The notes below the pieces were generated by a model. That model had not been told where the DNA came from. It saw only the letters and a list, made by a program, of their open reading frames with translations, and searched no databases. Below, one piece after another: positions 453 through 56,744 of a stretch of DNA of 56,854 nucleotides. The position numbers and the translations under genes are program-made. Origin of the DNA: Mycoplasmataceae bacterium (GTDB lineage: Bacteria; Bacillota_I; Bacilli_A; Mycoplasmatales; Mycoplasmoidaceae); contig JAIRTE010000015.1 of the NCBI GenBank assembly GCA_031255095.1, positions 1-56,854 of the forward strand. The letters are read 5' to 3'. Position 1 is the stretch's first letter; every line of letters starts with the position of its first letter.

Positions 453-611
453 TCCAGGATTTTTGGCCAGGTCTCCAAATGTGTTGTTTTTGTCCCATTG
501 AGCCTGAATATTTTTAATTTTATAACACACACAGTAAATATACTAAGAAAGCAGCCATTTTAAAAGGTGGTGAAATATATGAAGATTTTAAAAAAGCTTT
601 AGCTATAGAAA

Positions 612-2744
612 TTAAATAATCTTAAATTCAATTCTTCTAGTTTCTTTGTTAGTGTAAATTAATTGTACATTAACTTTTTTGCCTAATGAATAAACTATTT
701 TATTATCTTCACTAGATAATGTGCCATTTTTTTCATTATAAATATAATTTCCTTCTAATGTTTTAATAGATACTAGACCTTGGATAGTATTATTAAGTTG
801 GACAAAGAAACCAAATGATGCAACAACATAGATAGTTGCAGTATATGTTGAGAAAATTTTGTCTTCCAAAAATTCTGCAAATTTCATATTATTAACATCT
901 CTTTCTAAATGTTGAATAATAATTTCTTTTTCATTGCAATCTTTGCAATATTCTAATAACTTATTATTTAATAAATCTTTATATTCATCACTGTATGATT
1001 CCTTATCAAAATCAAATACTCAGAATATATGATGAATTAAAAAATCTGCAAATCGTCTGATCGGAGAAGTGAAATGAGTATAGTATTTTAAACCCAAGCC
1101 AAAATGGCCAACATTTTCAATTGCATATTTCGCTTTCGCCATACAACGCAACAACATAATGGATGCAATATCAAAATTTTCATTTTCTTTGTTAATTACT
1201 AATCATTTGCTTAAAATCTTAGAAGTAATTGGAAAAGACACTTCAGGAGTTAAGAAGCTAATGCTTTTAGCTTCTAAAATAAAATCTTTTATTTTTTCTT
1301 CTACTGGGGTTTCATGTATTCTATAAATAAATGGATATTTTTTTTCAACAGCATATTTAGTAACTGATTCATTAGCACATACCATGAAATCTTCAATCAT
1401 TTCTTGTGCAGTGCCTGAAGGTTTTTTAACAATATCAATAATTTTATTTTGATTGTTAACAATAATATTAGGTTCATTAGATGATAAATTAATGTAACCT
1501 AATCTAATTTTTAATTCTCTTAAAATAATATGCAATTGTTTAGATAGCAATAACATATCTTTAATTTCTTTTGTATCATTCTTTAATTCATTTTTATTAT
1601 TAAAGAAGTCATTAACTTCATCATAAGAAAATCTTCTTTTACTTTTAATAATAGAAGGATATAATTTTGTATTAGTAATTACTCCTTCTTTATTTAAATC
1701 CATTTCACAAGTTAATGAAAATCTAATTTCATTAGGATTAATTGAACAAATACCATTACTTAAAGCATGTGGAAGCATTGGTATTACTCGATCAATCAAA
1801 TAAATTGAGCTTGTACGTTTTAATGCTTCAATGCCTAAATCAGAATTCAGTTGTACAAAATGAGATACATCAGCAATACAAACATATAACTTATAACCAG
1901 TTTTAGTAGTTTCTAAATAATATGCATCATCAAAATCTTTTGATGTTGCAGGATCAATAGTAATAATATTTAAATGTGTTAGGTCTTTTCTTAAACTTTT
2001 TTGTTTTTCATCCACTTCAATTGTTTTAGCTTCTGCTTCTTTTAATAATTCTGAATCAAAATCTGGTTCGATATTAGCATCTAAAACAATTGATAAAACA
2101 TCAACACCAATATCATCTTTATTACCAATTACTGATATTAAAGAACAAAAAGCTACATTATCTTTATATTCAGTAACTTTAATTAAAATTTTTTCATTAG
2201 GTGTAACTTTAGAATTATCAGTTAATTTAAATTCTAAATTACATCTAATATCATCAGGCACTAAGTTTTTTGCTTCATTAACCCAACATACATAGCATTT
2301 CTTTTCATGGTTAATAATTTTAGTAACAATAGCTTCATTATCTTTCTCAGCACGTGAAATTTCATGGAATGATACTAAATCACCATTTTGTGCATTTTTT
2401 GTATTAGTACGATAAATAAAATACTTAGTGTCATCTACTGTTATAAAACCATTGCCAGCAGAATTGATGGCAATTATACCTTCTCTTTCACTACCTTTAA
2501 AAGTGTAGTGCTGTTTGTTAATACTAATTTTTCCACTATCATTTTGTTGAAATAATTCCCCATCATCAATTAAAGAAAAAATATAATCATAAACAATTTG
2601 TTTATGAGCAGAATAGTATTGATCAATTTCAATAATTTTTTTTAGTATTATTCCCGCTGGCACTGAATTATATTTATCATTTTTGACAATATCCAAAATG
2701 TACTTTCTTAATTCATTTCGTGGTATATAATTATCTTTATTCAT
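612..2744 (-). CDS. rnr: Ribonuclease R
   Basis: 3'-5' exoribonuclease of 710 residues that degrades structured RNA in the cytoplasm. The N-terminal third is a winged-helix/cold-shock region. The RNB catalytic domain begins around residue 255 with ITIDPATSKDFDDA, which supplies the metal-binding Asp residues, and later contains YYTHFTSPIRRFADFLIHH. An S1 RNA-binding domain follows (TYTATIYVVASFGFFVQ). The start ATG at 2744 overlaps the stop of secG by one base (TAATG), so translation is probably coupled. A secG-rnr pair is a common arrangement in Firmicutes and Mollicutes. Several internal TGA codons (for example between 888 and 1202) are needed for the full frame. The family assignment is secure. 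Confidence 0.95.
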
Positions 2745-3292: not shown

Positions 3293-4414
3293 TTATTTGC
3301 AATATAGTGTTAAATCAGCGAAGGTATTAATATATTCTCCCATAAAACTAAATTTATACCCTGGATTAATCTTATGCAAGTACAAAATGATTTCAATTAT
3401 ATCTTCATATTTATGATATGCGGAAATTGCTAATTTAGGTTTTGTTTCTCTAATAATTTTTTCGCTACCTCTCAAAACACCCATTTCGAAACCTTCAACA
3501 TCTAAAGAAAGAAATGTATATGGTTTATCCTCAAATAATGTATCTAAAGTTACCTGCTTAACTTGGTAACCTTTTTTTATATCTATCTCATTAATATTGT
3601 ACATTCCTTCTTCTTTAACAAAAATTGTTTCTTCTTTTTCACCCAAGGCATTGTATAAAATTTCATATTTTTCCTTTGGTATATTATTTTTAATCATTGT
3701 GTCAACAGCATCAGAAATATTTTTCTTAACACAATCAATTCCAATTAATTTACTGCATTTTTTATTAACATATTGATAAAAATATAATAATGATTTGCCG
3801 TCATAACAACCACAATTTACATATGTTTCTTCATCTGTAAAATTAAAAAAAGATGATAAATATTCTTCATTTGGATTTTTAATACATTTGGTTTGCTCAA
3901 TGTATTTAAATTTTAATTCAAACATTCCTTTAATTCAATAATAAAATGCTCTTTTGCCAGCATAATCTAATAATTTAAAGACTTTGAAATATTTATCGAT
4001 ATTTAATCGTGTTTTATCATAAAGTGCTAAAAAAGACTCCTTAAATGTATGCCCCTTAAAAATAGAGCTAAAATAAGCACAGTTATATCTTTTCCTTTCA
4101 AAAAAATGTAATATTCTAACTGTATTTACTTTATTGTAAAAATATTTAAAAGAATGTGTTTTAATATGATTTAATAATTTTCCAAAATCGCTTGCATAGT
4201 CATAAAAAAATAGTGAACGTAATTCTTTTTTTAATTTTTCCTCTACCATATGATAAAAATCAATGTTATCAAAAAATATTTTTTTAATTTGCTTAATTAA
4301 TTTTTGATTCTTTCTGTCAATATCAGTAAATTTTTCATTAATATTCTTAATTAGTTCTAATAAACAATCTTTGTTGTGTGTGTGTGCTATAAAATTAGAA
4401 ATATTATTTTTCAT
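3293..4414 (-). CDS. FkbM-family SAM-dependent methyltransferase with N-terminal helical domain
   Basis: Protein of 373 residues when read through TGA at 3935-3937 (AFYYWIKGMFEL). The C-terminal half is an FkbM methyltransferase: the SAM-binding loop is VNCGCYDGKSLLYF, and SLDVEGFEMGVLRG is the family signature. FkbM enzymes O-methylate sugars, so the likely substrate is a surface glycan made by the adjacent glycosyltransferases. The N-terminal about 165 residues are helical and Lys-rich. I chose ATG 4414 over the GTG at 4420; either start overlaps the previous gene by about 11 bp. A (TG)6 tract at 4375-4386 lies about ten codons in and encodes AHTHN; changing its length would put the rest of the gene out of frame. 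Confidence 0.82.
4375..4386 (-). repeat. CA/TG dinucleotide tract (6 units) in the FkbM gene
   Basis: Six TG units (CA on the coding strand) near codon 10. The flanking 28 nt up to the start codon are almost identical to those of the next gene upstream (5378-5405), so the two genes share a 5' module with the tract. At the present length the frame is open. Confidence 0.85.
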
Positions 4415-5405
4415 TTTCACTAATTACCTTAATTATACTCTCAGCAAATTTAGTTTCATCACACAAATCAAAACAATGTTGAGAATATGGAGAGTGATCA
4501 ACTTCTTTACATCATTTTGCATCTTCTTCACTAAATTTTGACATATCTTCAATATATCTAACTTTATTTGGTTCATTTAATAAATCATATGTGACTTTAG
4601 AATTGGTAAGGATTTTTTTGTTATTTTTAACACAAAAATCCCTTAGACTGAAGGGAAAATCATCCTTTTGTATTAAGTACAAAATTGTATTAGATTTTAT
4701 AAAATATTCTTGTAATGCAATAGAATTAGACAAAGGTTCATATTTAAAATATTTTTCTTCAGGAGTATTTTTAAAAAAATTATGTATAAGATCGGCAGGG
4801 TAAAAAAAACTTTTCAATTTTTTTAAAAATCTATTATCTATTAATTTAATAATTATTTTACCTCTTTCTAATGTTACCACATTAGCAACAAATGACAAAT
4901 CATATTTTAACCCATTTACATAGTTAGGATTTTTATATTTAAAAGGAAGTGGTAAATATTTAAGATTGTATTTTTTTGCATCACTTTCACAATATGTTAA
5001 TATATGATCAAATTTATTAGCAATATTTAAAATTGCATCTCTGTTAAAAGGTTTTTGAAAATCTGTATCATATCGATACAAAGTATCTGCAAAATAAAAA
5101 ATACTTTTAATTTTATATTTTTTAAATAAATTGCAAATTATTTTTATTTGTTTCTCATTTGCAAAAACTCTTACCAACAGATCAGTAACAACAAATATTG
5201 TTTTTTTGTAATTAAATAAATTACTCAATGTATATGCATAAATATATTTTTTTATTTGTACAAAATTTTTACATTTAACAACTCTAAAAAATTTTGTTTT
5301 TTTGAATTCAAATCATGGTGCTCATTCTGGAATAAAAAGCAAAGCTTTATTGCGTTTTTTCCTTGTGTGTGTGTGTGCTATAAATTTAGAAATATTATTT
5401 TTCAT
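4404..5405 (-). CDS. Glycosyltransferase, GT-B-like fold
   Basis: Protein of 333 residues starting MKNNISKFIAHTHTRKK. It resembles polysaccharide glycosyltransferases of the CgeB/GT4-like kind: FDHILTYCESDAKKYNLKYLPLPF is the usual inter-domain segment, and the C-terminal part has SLRDFCVKNNKKILTNS, matching the place where such enzymes bind the nucleotide sugar. The true start lies well upstream of the first Met seen with the standard code because of two TGA codons near 5310-5325 (IPEWAPWFEF). The start codon overlaps the end of the GT8 gene by 11 bp and the stop overlaps the FkbM gene by 11 bp, with the same junction sequence in both places. The sugar and acceptor cannot be told from sequence. 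Confidence 0.7.
5364..5377 (-). repeat. CA/TG dinucleotide tract (7 units) in the GT-B-like gene
   Basis: Seven TG units (CA on the coding strand) encode the HTHT stretch around codons 11-14. The frame is open at seven units. It is one unit longer than the tracts in the FkbM and GT4 genes, each of which is open at six, because the downstream sequences differ. Confidence 0.85.
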
Positions 5406-6462
5406 ACTTCATAAATTCACTTTCTACTTTTACACATAGTTGTCGTATAAATTTATTTTTAATTTTTTTAAGCAAAAATAAATTATCATTTTTAAAATTT
5501 TTTCATGCAAATTTTTCCTGAATATTAGTCTTGCAAAAAATTGTTGTCCAAGATTTATAAATGATTTTATGCAAAATATAGTGATAAAAATCCTTATAGA
5601 CTAAAAGAGCACAACAATGGAAAATGGTTATATCAGTCAATTTCAAAGCTGAGCAATTATATTTTAAATGAAGAGGTTTAATGGATAAAACATTACAATT
5701 AGCAATCATATCTCCTCATTTCAAATTTGAATAATATGTATACTCTTCACATATTTTGATGAAATTTTTTGAATAATTATTCAAATTCAATAACATCACA
5801 CCATTTTGTGTAAAAATGTTTGAAAATTGTTTAATTTCACATTTTGCTGATCATTGATGAAATACTTTTTCCTTTTTTAATGAATGATTAGAGATATATG
5901 TTATTGCTTTAAAATAATTTTTGCAAAACATATTAGCAAATTTTGGTTGATACGCAAGAATATCCACAACAGCCCCAATATCATAATTATCTAAATTAGT
6001 TTCAAATAATTCTTTTAAATCTTGCATGATAATAGTATCTGTATCCAATCATAACATTTTATTATTTGGAGTTGAAATATTCAAATAAGGTAATAAATAT
6101 CTTATAAATAATAGTGGGATTTTGTTTTTATATAAACCATTTCAATCAGTGACTTTAGATTTAGATCAGAATTTTTCTCTAACCAAATCACTAACATCAT
6201 AATAAAATATTTTACTATCTTTATTCTTTTGTTTTAATATGTTTTCTAAATGAGAGATTTGTTCTTTAGTTAACAAACTATCATTAGAAGATAATTCATT
6301 TAGATAGCAATCTAATAAATAGATATGTAGAATGGAATCTTGAGTTAAAGATAACGATGTTATTGAAACTAGTAATTGCTTATAAAGTCTACTACTACTG
6401 TAATATATTGATAGAATACTATTTTCAATTGTTTTGAAGTTGTATTGATTTTCCTGTGCCAC
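5395..6462 (-). CDS. Glycosyltransferase family 8
   Basis: Protein of 355 residues. The DxD metal-binding motif is in MLWLDTDTIIMQDLKELF, and NGVMLLNL is the second hallmark of GT8 enzymes, which transfer hexoses from UDP-sugars with retention. The opening (NSILSIYYSSSRLYKQLLVSI) is the usual first Rossmann strand. It is read through five or more TGA codons between 5503 and 6165. The start is GTG at 6462, because no in-frame ATG lies nearby; the preceding GT4 gene stops at 6477. Unlike its three neighbours it lacks a CA tract, although GTGGCACAGG at its start resembles the GGCACACACACA context in the GT4 gene. Likely role: surface polysaccharide or glycolipid synthesis. Confidence 0.8.
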
Positions 6463-6476
6463 TATAAAATTAAAAA

Positions 6477-7580
6477 TTATTGCTTATATTTATTATAAAT
6501 TTCCATTCATTTATCTTCAACTTTTTTGATACATAATTCAGTTTTAGCAAATTCTTGACAATTTTTAACAGTTTGTTCTCAATTATCTTTTGCAATGAAA
6601 TCATTAATTTGTTTAGCCATTATTTTTAAATTACTTTTTTTAAATAATTTTTTGTATTTTGGATTAGGCAAATTCACTAACAACCCATTTTTATTATCAT
6701 TAGTTAGGAATTTTGCATTTAAATAAGTATCAAGAACAATAATTGGTGTTGAATATGTTAAAGATTCTGCAAGGCTAATAGAAAAACCTTCAAATTTTGA
6801 TAATAATATTATATAATTGTAATTTTTTATTAAAGTCTTATATTCTTCATTTTTGTAGGAACCTAAAAATTTGCAATATTTTAAATATTTTTTAGGAATT
6901 TTAAAAATTATAGGACCATAAAAATCAACTTGATAATTTAAATATTTTGCTATTTTTATTAATAAAAAACATTTAGATTTTACAATTCTTCCAAAATATG
7001 CAATTTTTGTAATAGTATTTTTTACATGACTATCAAATTGAGCAAAAAATGGTACTATATTAGTTTCAATATTTTTATTTTTAAAATCATCTAATTTCAA
7101 AAGATATTCCTTGTCAAATTTTGTAAAACATAAAATATTTGCAGGTCTTTTTAAAGAATTTAATACTCATTGAGTAAATGGTGAACTATGCATTATGTAA
7201 ATAGAATTTTTTAAGTTGTAAAAAATGTTATTTAATGATTTAAGTTTAGAAAAAACGCATCATGTATCAAGACTATCAATGACAAAATCAGCACCTTGGC
7301 AACATTCTAATGCATATTGTGGATCATCAGTAAAATTTAATGAAGCAACATTTTCAAAATTAATTTCTTTATTTTTGTTCTTTTTGGCAACATAAAGCAA
7401 AATATTAAAATTTTTTTTTGAAAAAAATGTGTGTAAAAATTCAATATATTTTTCAGCACCCCCTCATAGTCCTCATTGTTCTACAGAATAAGAAGGAAGA
7501 CAAATAACAATGTTATATCTAATACCTTTTACATTCTCATGTGTGTGTGTGCCACTAACACCCACTTTATCTTTTACCAT
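6477..7580 (-). CDS. Glycosyltransferase family 4 (group 1)
   Basis: Protein of 367 residues. LWGGAEKYIEFLHTFF is the N-terminal glycine-rich motif of GT4 enzymes; the C-terminal domain shows IAYFGRIVKSKCFLLIKIA and the EGFSISLAESLTYSTPII signature, which contains the EX7E-type nucleotide-sugar site. GT4 enzymes are retaining transferases, typically acting at the inner membrane face on lipid-linked sugars. The ATG at 7580 overlaps the secY stop (TTATGGTAA), so it is translationally linked to secY. Codons 10-14 are made from a (CA)6 tract encoding GTHTHE, so the gene can be switched by slippage. It replaces the adk/map genes that usually follow secY. Confidence 0.82.
7540..7551 (-). repeat. 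CA/TG dinucleotide tract (6 units) in the GT4 gene
   Basis: Six TG units (CA on the coding strand) about ten codons after the start. The context differs from the shared 5' module of the other two tracts, so this tract arose or was kept independently. The frame is open at this length. Confidence 0.85.
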
Positions 7581-9010
7581 AACTTCTCTAATTTACTATC
7601 ATTATTAATATTTTCCTTAGATTCATAAATCTTAGTTTCAATTTTACCCTTAGCTTGTGAATATCCAGATGTTGTAGCAGCTGAGATAATAGAATTTCAC
7701 AATTCTAATGTACCAGTAACAATAATAATCATACCAGTACCGCCAACAGCCATACCTGAAGGGATATGGGTGAATTGGGAAACTATATAAGGTAATACTG
7801 CAATAATACCTAATATCGGTGCACCAATTCAATTAACTCTGCTTAATGATTTGGTGATATGTTTTTCAGTATTATCACCAAATTTAATACCTGGTATGAA
7901 TCTACCAGATTTAGTAAAGTTTTCTGCTAATTGTTGTGGGTTAATTTGTACATAGGAATAAAAGAATGAAAACATTACAATTAATAAGAAGAATATAGAT
8001 ATACCACTTCAGCTATCTAAGGTTAAATAGCCTTTGCTTGAAGCATTTCCTACAATAAACCATTTAACTTCACTAGAATCAGGTAAAAATTGAGCAATTG
8101 TACCTGGAATAGTCATTAATGATGAAGCAAAGATTACTGGAATAACACCAGCAGAATTAATTTTAATTGGTAAATAAGGTAAATCATTAAAATCAGTCAT
8201 CAAACCTTGACCAGTTTGTTGAATAGGTATTTTTCTAGTAGAAGCATTAACAAATATAACTGCAAACAATATTGCAATATAGAAAATAACATACAATGTG
8301 CAAGATAAGATAACTGTTAGTAATCTTACTTCACTGCTGCTAGAAATTGATGAAGCAATTGTTTGGAAAGCAACAGTGAAGTCAGAAAAGAAAGAAGAAA
8401 CAATACCTGAAAGAATCAATAAGGTAATACCATTACCAACACCACGTTTGGTAATCATATCACCTAAGAAGATACAAATGTATGTACCTGCTGTTAAAAT
8501 AAATAATAGACCAAATGTTTCACCTAAATTTAATTGGTTTAGTGCATCATGCCCAAAAATTTTAACACCAGTTTGTGCAGAAGATTGTAACATTAAAGCA
8601 ATAACAGCATAACCTTGTGCTACAGCAAAAGGTAATGTTATTATTCTTGTTACTATTTCTAATTTTCTTCTACCTCTTTCACCTTGCTTAGCAGCACGAG
8701 AAAGTGGTGGAATTAAATCACTTGACAACAATTGTACAATAATTTGAGAAGTAATATATGGGCTGACACCAACAGCCAATATAGACATTCTACTTAAACC
8801 ACCACCTGCTAATAGGTTTAGCATACCTGCAAAACCATTAGAATCAGCAGTAAACTTACCTGGTGTTATCCCAGGTAATGTAATCGTTGATAATAAATGG
8901 AATAATAATACTAAAAAACCAGTAATAGATAATGAAAATATTACATTTTTGTTTTTAAAAATAGATTTTAAAACATCAAAGCTGCTTTTGTTTGTTTTGT
9001 GATTGGCCAT
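7574..9010 (-). CDS. secY: Preprotein translocase subunit SecY
   Basis: Channel-forming subunit of the Sec translocon, 478 residues with about ten hydrophobic segments. Recognisable parts are [15 protein letters not shown], the conserved [13 protein letters not shown] loop, [12 protein letters not shown], and [22 protein letters not shown]. The frame runs through a TGA at 8009-8011 into [23 protein letters not shown], also classic SecY. The start ATG at 9010 has TATAAT boxes immediately upstream. The gene is detached from rplO (33.5 kb in this window), which is unusual because secY normally ends the spc cluster. The C-terminal tail is rich in charged residues and overlaps the GT4 start. Confidence 0.96.
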
Positions 9011-9129
9011 TTATTATATATATTATATAATAAGGTCAAAAAATGGTCTCAACTGTTTTTTTCTGACAAAAATGCAATTATTACATTAAAATAAAAAAAA
9101 TTTCACATTCACCTTTTCCCTCAGAAAAT

Positions 9130-9161
9130 GAGACTTTTTTGAGACTTTTTTGAGACTTTTA
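9130..9161 (+). repeat. Three tandem copies of an 11-bp unit
   Basis: GAGACTTTTTT is repeated at 9130-9140 and 9141-9151, with a third slightly different copy at 9152-9161. It lies in the gap between the divergent secY and Trp-heptad genes, upstream of the latter. A related word, gagaccatttttt, is on the minus strand near 9033-9045. It may be a spacer repeat modulating promoter strength; function unknown. Confidence 0.7.
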
Positions 9162-9187
9162 TTTTTCTGTTGGATAATAATATTACT

Positions 9188-9787
9188 ATGGAACAAAAAG
9201 CATTACCATTATTAGTTTTAGATAGTCCTGATGAAAACAGGATTGGAATATTGGAATTATTCCAACCTGTTAGTATGACTTTAGAAGAGGCTAAGAAATT
9301 TATTGAAGATTTAAAAAATTCTAGAAAAAAAGGAAAGAGAAAAAATAACACCAATACTAAAGGTGGTGATGATACACCACCAAATGATAATATTGACATT
9401 ATCCAAACAAAAAAACCACATACGGCACCCAGAACCAAACTGCCTAAAAAACCAAAGAAAAAATATAAAACTAAAAAAAGTGAGGAAGAACCAATATGGT
9501 TCAAGAAATTTGTTGATACTAGATTCAATCAATTAGAAATTAATGTGGCTATTTTATTAGAATGAAAAGTTTCTATGGATAAATGAAGAAGTGAAGTTGA
9601 TGAATGACGATTCAAAATGGATGAATGAAGGATGAAAATGGATGAGTGACGATTCAACTTTGATAAATGAAGAAGTGAAGTTGATGAATGACGATTCAAC
9701 TTTGATAAATGAAGAAATGAAATTGATGAGTGAAGGATGAAAATGGATGAGTGAAAGAATAAGGTATCTGAAAAAATAAATATTTAA
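9188..9787 (+). CDS. Repetitive coiled-coil protein with Trp heptads
   Basis: Protein of 199 residues visible only when TGA is Trp: the last third contains nine TGA Trp codons spaced seven residues apart. Layout: a globular N-terminus (about 1-45), a Lys/Pro-rich basic linker, the block PIWFKKFVDTRFNQLE, then heptads such as WRSEVDE, WRFKMDE, WRMKMDE and WRFNFDK, ending KVSEKINI. The PxWFKxFVD block followed by heptads links it to the two genes at 14999-15728, so the three form a family with different heptads. I prefer ATG 9188 to an in-frame TTG at 9170. It has no signal peptide. The function is unknown; a self-associating rod is an inference. Confidence 0.72.
9566..9757 (+). repeat. 21-bp heptad repeat array
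   Basis: About nine 21-bp units of the form TGA-AGA-...-GAT-GAA or GAT-AAA, each encoding W-R-x-x-x-D-E/K. Several units are identical at nucleotide level (gaagttgatgaatgacgatt recurs), so the array can expand or contract by recombination while keeping the reading frame. Confidence 0.85.
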
Positions 9788-51566: not shown

Positions 51567-54500
51567 TTATTCAAATTTATCATTTGAGTTGTAAACCTTT
51601 CCTAAAACACTAACATTCACAATTTTAAATTTTTCTATTAGATTGTTTGGTACAATAAAAAGTCTCTTAGATTTGCCATCTTCTCCTGCGTAATCCTTAA
51701 ACAAACTTTTAACTTCAAATTTTTTTGAATAACCAGAAATTTCATAAATTTCATTAGAATTAAATTTAATTCCGTTACTTTCATATTCAGCATTATCCTT
51801 TAATTTAATCTTTGTACCTTTGTAAATAACTATATGTTTTTGTGACTGTATTTTTTTAAGCAAATCTTTGTCTGTTTTTACAGTATAATTTTCATTTTTT
51901 CACTCATTATTTTCTTTTCAAAAATAAATTTTTTTGAATGGGAAAGATGTATAAGCACCAGCATTTGACCAATTTTCATCATTTTTTTGGCCTTTTGGAA
52001 AGAAATATGTATCTTTTTCTGTTTTACTAAGTAATGATAAATTTGCTATTTTAGCTATTGAATTTTCATTTTTAATTTCTACATAGTCATATTTTGTAGG
52101 AATTTTTTTATCTTTCTCAATTTTAAATGAATCATTTTCCTCATTTAAATAATATAAAAAAGAATTTATCTTTAAATCATTTTCTTGATATTTATTAAAT
52201 ATTTTCTGCAATTTTAAAAATAATTCATTCTCACTGTGAAACATTTTCACACATTCTTTTTCTTTACCATTAAAATATTTTTTTAAATCATTATTTTCTG
52301 TTGTTAACAAATTTATTTTTTCATTTAAAAAATAATCATTTTTTTTACTTTTTGTTATTGAATACAAAGTCTGATTATAAAATTCATTGTTCGTGTGTTT
52401 ATAAATTGGTTTATAATAATTAAAATTTAAAGAATTTTGGAATTTTTCACTATTAATTTTATTTTCTGCTAGCATTCTTTTTATTTCTCCCATTAAATTC
52501 ATTTCTTTGTCAGTAATTTTATTTTTTTCAATATTGGATTCTATTTTTTGTGTTAAGAAATATGAGTAAGCAACTGCAACAGCATCAACACCATGATGTG
52601 AATAAATTTGTCGATTTTTATCATAATTTTTTTGAATAAAGTCTAAATCTCCAGGAGCAATTTTTGTATCCTTCAAATGGAGAATATTTTTAATTTTATT
52701 AGTAATTTTACCAGTTGTAGTAAAAACATTTTTTTCACCATATTTTTTTATTAAAATTTCCTTTATTATTGAAGTAATATAAGAGGTGTCGGACAAATTC
52801 CTACCAACAAAACCTAATTTTTCAGCCAATTTATTAATATCTTTTTCTTCTTCCATCAAACGAGAATACTTGTTAGGATTATTCTTTTTTATCTCTTTTC
52901 AACATTCACTATTACATTTTTGCATTTGTGTACCATTAAAGAAAACAGCTGGTGTTTTATTACCTTTATATTGATTTTCAGTTTTAAGCACTAAAACTTT
53001 ATTATTATATGAATCATCACCTGATCATGAAAGTGCAAAAATATGATCAATTTCACAATAAGAACCATCTCCTAATCTATCTTTGTCAATTGATTTTAAA
53101 GAATATGGACATGTACCATTTTGTTCTTCATATAGTCTATATTTTGTAATCAATGTAGGCATTGGAGTAATTTTGTTTTTATTTAATTCCTCAACTATAT
53201 TTTTATTTCTTTTTTTATTTTCATCATTAATTGTTTTTATTTCTTTTCTAGTCTCGTATGAATTATGAGATCTAGCCATTTCAATATTAAAAATTACATC
53301 ATCTTTGTTAATTTTGTATTTCTTAAAATATTTATGTAAAACATGCAACAACATATTAGTAACTTTTTTAACATTAGAATTGGTTATTTCACTCATTAAT
53401 TGTTCTACATTTTTAGCCTTTACAATTTGAGGATTATCTTTTATTCATGATTGCAAATTGTATTTATTTTTTAAAAAATCTTTGAGTAGAAGATTGCATG
53501 CCTTTATTGAAAGTCTTGATTGAGAAAAATATTCTTTTCCATTTTTAACAATGTAATTTTGTAAAAAAGTTTTATCTATTTTATCTTTTATTTCTTTTTC
53601 TAATTCTGCTCCAAGTGGGTATTCCATCTTTAATTCACCTTCCTTAGTTTTAGAATTTTCATCAATTCATGACCTATCTATATATTTATTTAATATATTA
53701 CTTCATCCGTCAAGTAAATTAATTGAATCAAAATTAAAAGTATCTTCACCTTTAGTAAAAATAGAAATATTTAACAAATTTGCAAATGTTTTAGTATGAG
53801 TTAAAACATTTGTTGAAAAAAGTTTAATTTCGCATTTGCCATTCTTTATTTCATCTGCAAATGGACAACATTCAAATTGAAAAGCTTTAATAAATGCTTT
53901 ATAAGTGATTGTTTTTTCTTTAATAATCCAATCAATTATCAGTTTCTTATCATTGGCAGTTAAATCATATTTTTCTCCTGTTTTTGGTTTAAATCAAGAT
54001 CTATTATTTAAACTTTCTAAAATTCTAAATAATTCAAAAGAACTAGTCATTTTATTGCTTCTATTTTCATTAGGGAATAAAGTACATTTACCAATTAATT
54101 TGTCAAAAATTCTTTCAGTAGAATTATTTTGTGCATTACTAAAACATGTACCATAATTACTATTTGTTTTTGAATTTCCAGGACCAAATGCATAATTTCT
54201 TCTTCTATCAAATAAATTTAGAAATTCATTTTGAAATTTTTCAGAAAAACATTTTGTGACTTCAAAGAAAATTTTTATCTCTTTTTTGTAATCATTATGA
54301 CTTATAGAAATTATTTCTTCCTCCGCATTGAAGGCTTTTAATTTAAATGAGCCTACATTTTTAAAATGTACCATTATACGTTGTATCGGTAATATTTCAT
54401 TATCATTACAATACCAACTACCTCTATGTTGCAAATAATGGTATAACAACTTGATTAATGTATCTTGTGAATATGTATTAGTTTTATTAATTGCAATGTT

Positions 54501-54794
54501 ATATTTACATTCATATACATTAATATGATTTTTAATGATGTCAAAATTCAATAAAATATTATTATCTTTTAATAGACTGATAAAATCTTTTTTTAAATTG
54601 TATTTTCTTTTAATTCTTCTTCTTTGACTACGAAATTCTCTTCTATTAGCCATAGAATTTTTACCATCTTTTTCATTGTAATTATCTTTCATTCTAATAA
54701 TTAAAGGATTGCGTAATAATTTGCCACATTCATTTATTTCAGCAATGCCAATAGATGTAGGTCCCAAGTCAATTCCAATAATAGTTTTGGCCAT
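51567..54794 (-). CDS. cas9: CRISPR-associated endonuclease Cas9
   Basis: Protein of 1075 residues, compact form. RuvC-I has [14 protein letters not shown] (Asp9); the Arg-rich bridge helix [15 protein letters not shown] follows near 50; Ruv[13 protein letters not shown] (Glu505); [19 protein letters not shown] (His584) with [14 protein letters not shown]; Ruv[15 protein letters not shown] (His733, Asp737). All catalytic residues are present, so both strands could be cut. It needs about eight TGA Trp codons. The short C-terminal PAM-interacting part is poorly conserved. It is read opposite to cas1-cas2-csn2. TATAAT is 9 nt before the ATG. Confidence 0.96.
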
Positions 54795-54803
54795 AATAAC
54801 CTT

Positions 54804-54838
54804 ATTATACTTAAGGCATTTTTGTTAACATGTATAAT
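54804..54838. promoter_or_regulatory. Shared divergent promoter of cas9 and cas1
   Basis: Two TATAAT boxes back to back: 54809-54804 toward cas9 and 54833-54838 toward cas1, with 23 bp between them containing GTTAAC. The -35 regions must overlap. Both start codons lie 8-9 nt beyond their -10 box, with no ribosome binding site. Confidence 0.6.
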
Positions 54839-54846
54839 AAAAAATT

Positions 54847-55734
54847 ATGGGCTTTAAAATAGTGGAGTTAGAAAACTCTTGAAAAATTGGATATAAACTT
54901 GATAACATTATAGTAAATTATAAAGAATTTGTTATTCCAATATTAATTAGTGAAATAGATGTATTGTTAGTCAATAACCAGCTAAGTGTTTCAGTTAGAT
55001 TGCTTAGTGAATTATCAAAGCATAATGTATTAGTAATCATTTGTGATGAAAAACATATACCATCTACTTTAATTGTTCCAATTTCTGGGCATTATAATAG
55101 TTTGAAAATTTTAGAAAAACAAATGCAATGAACTGATAAATATAAATTTGAAAAATGAAGAGACATTATTAAATTGAAAATATTTTTTGAAGACCAAATA
55201 ATTGATTTTTTAAAATTAGATAAAATAGATAATGTAAATTACAACTATGATAGTTTTGTTAGTGTGCAAGGTGCTGAAGCATTACATGCTAGAATGCTTT
55301 TTGAAAGATTATTTGGTAAAAAATTTATCAGATTTGATGAAGAAAATGATGAGAATAGATTTATTAATTCTACATTAAATTATGGTTTTAGTATTATCCT
55401 TTCAGCATTTTGTAGAAGTATTGTTAAAAATGGTTATGATACAAGAATTTCATTGTTTCATAAATCATTTTCTAATCATTTTGCATTGGCATCTGACTTA
55501 ATGGAACCATTTAGAATATTAATAACTTTTTATACTTATAAAGTAATCAGAAAATTAAAAAAAGAGCATTTAATTTTATCTTCTGAAATCAAAACACAAT
55601 TGATAAAAATTTTGGAAGAAGATATGTATTACAACAATGAAAGAATTAGAATTTCTATTGGAATTGATAAATATGTTTTTGATATTTTAAATGATAAAGA
55701 ATTTAAGATAGAATTCATTTATGATATCAACTAA
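54847..55734 (+). CDS. cas1: CRISPR integrase Cas1
   Basis: Protein of 295 residues (MGFKIVELENSWKIGYKLD), type II form. SVQGAEALHARMLFERLFG holds the metal Glu, FHKSFSNHFALASDLMEPFR the His and Asp. It integrates new spacers with Cas2. The frame needs TGA Trp near 54878, 55130 and 55158. It overlaps the first possible cas2 start. Confidence 0.94.
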
Positions 55735-55738
55735 TTTT

Positions 55739-56047
55739 ATGAGAATTTTTGTCTTTTTTGATTTGCCCACAGACACCGCTGAAGATTTAAAAAATTACCG
55801 TATTTTTAGAAAAAATTTATTTAAATTAGGATATACAATGATGCAATACTCAATATATCAAAAATCTATCAATGTGCAAACTAAAAGAGAAAGAGAAGAA
55901 AAGAAAATTATTTCTATTCTTCCAAAATACGGCGATGTGAGATTTATGTGTGTCACTGAACATCAATATCAAGATATAAAAATTTTACGTGGCGAAAAAA
56001 GCATTGTCGAAAAAGTAAATGATGAAAAAACATATATAAAATTATAA
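55739..56047 (+). CDS. cas2: CRISPR-associated Cas2
   Basis: Protein of 102 residues starting MRIFVFFDLPTDTAED, the usual beginning with the Asp of the ferredoxin fold; QYSIYQKSI is typical of type II Cas2. I chose ATG 55739 over an in-frame ATG at 55721. It follows cas1 by 4 bp and precedes csn2 by 1 bp. Confidence 0.93.
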   Translation: MRIFVFFDLPTDTAEDLKNYRIFRKNLFKLGYTMMQYSIYQKSINVQTKREREEKKIISILPKYGDVRFMCVTEHQYQDIKILRGEKSIVEKVNDEKTYIKL

Positions 56048-56048
56048 T

Positions 56049-56744
56049 ATGGGTTACATCAGCTTAAATGAAAAAACAATAAACATAACTATTGATAACA
56101 TTTTATTTGTTAAAACTTCCGATTTGATGGAATTTTATTATTTAATAACTGAGAGTAAGATTAAGGTCTATGATGAAGTTGATTTTATGAATAAACATCG
56201 AAGTATCATTATTACACCAATTACACTCATTGGAGATCTCATTAATTTTTCAAAAACTAATTGTTTTGGTAAAAAATTTTTAGAAAATGAACAATGAAAT
56301 TTATCAAATTTATTCAACGAAAATACTAAAGAAACAATATTTACTGAATTACAAAAATATTTTTCTGATATAGAAATGAAACAAGATTTTGATTATGCAA
56401 AAATTCTTAATTTTTTATTAGAATGCAATGGCGACAAAAATATTACTAAAAAAGAATTTTTAACTTTCATTGAATGTTTTGAAAGAACAACATTAACAAA
56501 TTTAATGATTCTTAATCCAACTTGATTTGATGATGATTGTATTGAAAAAATAAAAGAGAAAAATATCAAAACTGTAATTGTATTTAATGATTACCAAAAT
56601 ATTAAAAAATATGTGGTTGATGATATTAATAATGTGGTTGTCATTACTAAAAATGATGTATGCATATATGATGAAAAAAATAATATTTCAAATGAAGATA
56701 AAAGTGATGATATTTTTGGAGAAAAAGTATTCTTAAAATTCTAA
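56049..56744 (+). CDS. csn2: Csn2-like spacer acquisition protein
   Basis: Protein of 231 residues in the csn2 position; NLMILNPTWFDDDCIEKIKE and KTVIVFNDYQNIKKYV fit the Csn2 fold, where a DNA-end-binding ring forms. This makes the locus subtype II-A in content. Sequence identity to well-known Csn2 proteins cannot be judged by eye. Two TGA codons. Immediately after the stop an open frame one base off continues to 56851. Confidence 0.72.

Follow-up and report, generated by a model that had tools for sequence, protein, structure and literature searches.

The closest described systems are cases of phase variation by SSRs in host-associated bacteria, mycoplasmas among them. In M. mycoides subsp. 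capri, the mod gene, which encodes the type III methyltransferase M.MmyCI, is inactive with AG12 and active with AG10 (PMC3498834). The glucan synthase gene of M. iowae has a 5′ poly(TA) stretch whose length differs between two genome versions, and the antigen varies in colonies (PMC11658790). Similarly to the tracts reported here, the SSR contingency loci of Neisseria and other pathogens have repeats in surface-glycan and R-M genes, the reading frame setting the ON or OFF state (PMC5953494; PMC11868660). However, those repeats are mostly homopolymers or longer units, and in a phasome study the dinucleotide tracts of Neisseria did not vary; the published cut-offs for dinucleotides are 6 units to detect a tract and 8 to class it as phase-variable (PMC5953494).

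The locus analysed here, a four-gene cluster in which three genes contain a CA tract close to their start, would work along the same lines. It shares with M.MmyCI a mollicute host and a dinucleotide tract in a coding region whose length sets the frame, a likeness that is also found in a congener, where an N6_N4 methylase has a CA tract (genome G033). Nevertheless, M.MmyCI has 10 to 12 AG units and its activity was measured, whereas the present tracts consist of 6 to 7 CA units in glycan-type genes and are known from sequence alone. With the M. iowae gene it has in common a 5′ dinucleotide tract in a mollicute polysaccharide gene; there the repeat is TA and a single synthase carries it, while here three adjacent genes are involved, together with a reused leader. 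A literature search that had most subscription journals outside its reach gave no report of switching by CA tracts in mollicutes.

The window, that is, the whole stretch of 56,854 nt under analysis, is contig 13 of a genome of 997 kb in 52 contigs, and it uses code 4 (TGA as Trp). The relatives of its SecY at ∼60% identity come from metagenome assemblies labelled Mycoplasmataceae or Mycoplasmatota, a few Ureaplasma sp., and Candidatus Hennigella equi. The host is an uncultured gut relative of mycoplasmas, from an undescribed lineage. The comparison set within the genus comprised 35 further species, with one genome per species. The features of the window that bear on the cluster are as follows.

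7574 to 9010, minus strand: secY, directly upstream of the cluster
6477 to 7580, minus strand: GT4 glycosyltransferase gene (Pfam Glycos_transf_1, 1e-10), currently ON
7540 to 7551, minus strand: (CA)6 tract of the GT4 gene, 12 nt (TG on the plus strand)
5395 to 6462, minus strand: GT8 glycosyltransferase gene (Pfam Glyco_transf_8, 5e-11), GTG start
4404 to 5405, minus strand: unclassified middle gene, an ORF of 333 aa, currently ON
5378 to 5405, minus strand: leader of the middle gene, 28 nt (ATG...TATAG), overlapping the GT8 stop
5364 to 5377, minus strand: (CA)7 tract of the middle gene, 14 nt (TG on the plus strand)
3293 to 4414, minus strand: FkbM-family methyltransferase gene (Pfam/NCBIfam), currently ON
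4387 to 4414, minus strand: leader of the FkbM gene, 28 nt, overlapping the stop of the preceding gene
4375 to 4386, minus strand: (CA)6 tract of the FkbM gene, 12 nt (TG on the plus strand)
506 to 620, plus strand: GT2 gene relic, in which a leader, a short AC tract and the first codons are fused to the last codons (intact copies on contig 12)

The ATG of the GT4 gene overlaps the region of the secY stop codon, and the middle and FkbM genes each begin within the stop region of the preceding gene. These overlaps make a single transcript likely, so that the genes of the cluster are probably cotranscribed behind secY. Since the FkbM and middle genes overlap the upstream stop, turning one gene OFF could reduce the output of its neighbour, and the ON and OFF states of adjoining genes may thus be coupled. 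Glycosyltransferase domains are present in the GT4 and GT8 products (Pfam). The earlier note had also placed the FkbM gene among the glycosyltransferases, but FkbM is a methyltransferase family (Pfam/NCBIfam), and its domain is confined here to residues 197 to 347. No export gene was identified in the cluster, and adjacency to secY is no proof of a surface product. The cluster may make a product located at the surface, and the up to eight independent glycan states proposed in the earlier note are a possibility.

The description of the middle gene as GT-B-like is not backed by sequence searches or structure prediction. Its product gave no domain match in Pfam or NCBIfam, its alignment gave none when searched against PDB and Pfam, and no fold is assigned, as the single-sequence AlphaFold model (pLDDT 34) was unusable. 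No relatives were found among viral contigs. A homologue adjoins the UDP-galactopyranose mutase gene in congener G007, and a paralogue lies in a second glycan cluster of the same genome, on contig C12. Judged from genomic context alone, a glycan role is likely.

Elsewhere, the window contains a type II CRISPR-Cas locus (51567 to 56744), with a Cas9 of 1075 aa on the minus strand that matches HNH_4 and RuvC_III and adjoins apparent cas1, cas2 and csn2 genes; a second, larger Cas9-like protein of 1502 aa with similar neighbours is encoded on contig C42 (L029:5496-10004). Coding repeats of 21/42 nt (DEWRxKMDEWR) occur at 9575 to 9760, within the gene of an unclassified protein (9128 to 9787, plus strand).

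The three CA tracts start 28 to 29 nt from the ATG and occupy codons 10 to 14 of their genes, which confirms the coordinates and the position, about ten codons into three of the four genes, given in the earlier note. Apart from these three, perfect dinucleotide repeats of at least 12 nt are absent from the window, and 100 replicates of order-1 Markov sequences produced none; for (TG)5, seven matches were found versus 0.03 expected from shuffles. At their present length, which is the consensus of a draft assembly, all three frames are open. The expected frameshift upon a one-unit change was borne out by a frame table: a gain or loss of one or two units would reduce the product of each gene to a peptide of 15 to 51 aa, whereas three units restore the reading frame. 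As in a contingency locus, a pure tract is thus found in the 5′ coding region above chance, and a gain or loss of units shifts the frame and shortens the product.

The segments from the ATG to the tract of the FkbM and middle genes are identical at 27 of 28 nt, while the following 60 nt agree at only 15 positions, in line with the reuse of a near-identical 5′ module that had been proposed before. Among 6189 ATG sites, the next-best match to this leader was 22/28. The leader of the GT4 gene is unlike the other two. Five homologues of the middle protein, including one in the same genome that is 54% identical, start without the leader, which is therefore an addition. A closely similar leader also precedes GT2 genes on contig 12 and is present in the GT2 relic of the window. 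Such reuse is unusual among phase-variation loci. The GT8 gene lacks a CA tract and has just GGCACAGG at its start; a former leader was considered for it, but the match (TTTTATAGTGGCACAGG) is too short to claim. The GT2 relic at 506 to 620 adjoins an IS-type integrase fragment (129 to 452).

Natural examples of both states, ON and OFF, are provided by paralogues whose leaders are the same or similar, and by congeners. The source genome has ten CA tracts of at least 12 nt, each located at a gene for a surface, glycan or R-M function. The glycan cluster on C12, which includes a broken GT4 copy, contains three tandem GT2 genes: one without the leader, one with the leader and an interrupted tract, which is ON, and one (L027:16375) with a similar leader and one extra CA unit (7.5 units), which is OFF although its remaining 282 codons are open. 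On C52, two membrane-protein paralogues, 44% identical and with the common leader MAKTLNKTN, are ON with (CA)8 and OFF with (CA)13. Further tracts lie before two BspA-type LRR lipoprotein genes on C35; on C10 and C42, they are upstream of a type I R-M operon and of a membrane protein gene, respectively. At the two C35 paralogues (L028:2626 and 4678), a GT tract of 21 and 13 nt, respectively, abuts TATAAT 12 nt before the ATG; a promoter-spacing switch was considered there as a possible lead and set aside, because the promoter scan did not rise above shuffles.

Within the genus, tracts of (CA)6 or longer were present in 14 of the 35 congeners, and in none of 24 genomes outside it. Seventeen ATG-led intragenic tracts were found in 6 genomes, 8 of them ON and 9 OFF. 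Were they ordinary coding sequence, nearly all would be expected in frame. The OFF genes keep downstream frames of 153 to 570 codons open, which would not be expected if they were long dead, and for seven of the nine there is a paralogue whose leader matches. Congener genes with tracts encode HsdM (G015), an N6_N4 methylase and an Eco57I-type methylase (G033), an acyltransferase (G023) and an unidentified product (G002); the assignments in G023 and G002 are less sure, as the leader ATG lies merely 10 to 13 nt before the tract. Six paralogous lipoprotein genes of G007 (L095-L100), one ON and five OFF, carry a GT tract in the region coding for the signal peptide. In G005 (L102:2391-3615), the two halves of hsdS are separated by a CA tract that is now out of frame; it could switch the gene between a half-length and a full-length HsdS.

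Other CA tracts of the genus stand in different settings. In G020 and G027 (L063-L075), they belong to an element that recurs in intergenic DNA (CTATTCACCG...CGTC(CA)n...AATCA), frequently between genes and close to the ends of contigs, and in G023 and G021 (L084, L087 and L107), inverted pairs of CA tracts ∼100 nt apart lie beside lipoprotein genes, where they perhaps represent divergent promoters.

Taken together, the CA tracts of the cluster are very probably slipped-strand phase-variation switches, as the earlier note had suggested, a reading that draws support from the OFF paralogues, the genus-wide tracts, the failure to detect MutS and the added and reused leader. In each gene, the tract comes after a short N-terminal leader that lies outside the catalytic domain. 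The polymerase would gain or lose CA units by slippage, an event in cells that we infer; any change not divisible by three would shift the frame, stop translation after 15 to 51 residues and turn the gene OFF, and further slippage back would turn it ON again. With three cotranscribed genes each ON or OFF, a glycan or a glycosylated surface product would vary from cell to cell.

An unlikely alternative is that the tracts are short and effectively fixed coding repeats, that the genus switches at other loci, and that the cluster is constitutively ON because 6 to 7 units hardly slip. Indeed, this is short for a hypermutable tract, compared with 8 to 13 units in the C52 paralogues and up to ∼26 in congeners; it also falls below the 8-unit cut-off set in the work that reported invariant dinucleotide tracts in Neisseria (PMC5953494), and all three loci of the cluster are ON together. 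Against it, the closely similar leader on C12 is OFF at just 7.5 units. Moreover, tracts of this length are absent from the rest of the window, which makes retention by chance unlikely, and the MutS domain V (MutS_V) was detected in none of the 36 genomes of the genus versus 11 of 14 control genomes, a result that favours slippage. It is quite unlikely, too, that internal start codons bypass the tract, leaving it to affect an N-terminal tail at most. Alternative starts that keep the frame open at all lengths had been named in the earlier note as one finding that would speak against switching, and in the FkbM gene, whose next in-frame ATGs are at codons 56 and 164, the latter lies directly before the domain and could yield a bare FkbM domain in OFF cells. 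In the middle and GT4 genes, by contrast, the next in-frame ATG is far inside, at codons 288 and 130. The middle gene has a possible TTG start just past the tract, but translation from it would remove part of the first segment alignable with the starts of homologues. Among the three genes, a restart could plausibly save the catalytic domain of FkbM only, and the OFF state of the FkbM and middle genes may be incomplete.

The OFF paralogues could be nothing more than pseudogenes of recent origin. The broken GT4 copy on C12 and the GT2 relic in the window are evidence of decay, and the copying of two near-identical leaders is clear; even so, we consider it very unlikely that all OFF copies are decaying pseudogenes and the CA leaders duplicated relics of one ancestral gene, with no switching, given the open frames of 153 to 570 codons downstream and the recurrence of leaders and tracts on unrelated genes, in several species and with differing leader sequences. 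Repeats are also able to cause transcriptional slippage, and slippage of the ribosome or of RNA polymerase along the tract would give mixed products from one DNA length, by programmed or transcriptional frameshifting and with no heritable switch. This is highly improbable here, since the tract lengths of paralogues differ by units that move the frame, which points to a change at the DNA level.

Phase variation of the cluster by slippage in the CA tracts would bring CA repeats, and a species-rich genus of uncultured gut mollicutes, within the scope of SSR phase variation. More tentatively, and with some doubt, the leader (an ATG, about nine codons and the CA tract) may be portable, copied before unrelated genes as a plug-in switch, and may form part of a genus-wide CA-tract phasome over glycan, DNA methylase and lipoprotein genes in gut mollicutes without MutS. 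The analysis also names specific loci at which the number of units can be counted in metagenome reads that already exist. DNA methylase genes bearing such tracts point to possible phasevarions, and the reused leader would constitute a natural experiment in which a switch was added to a gene that once had none.
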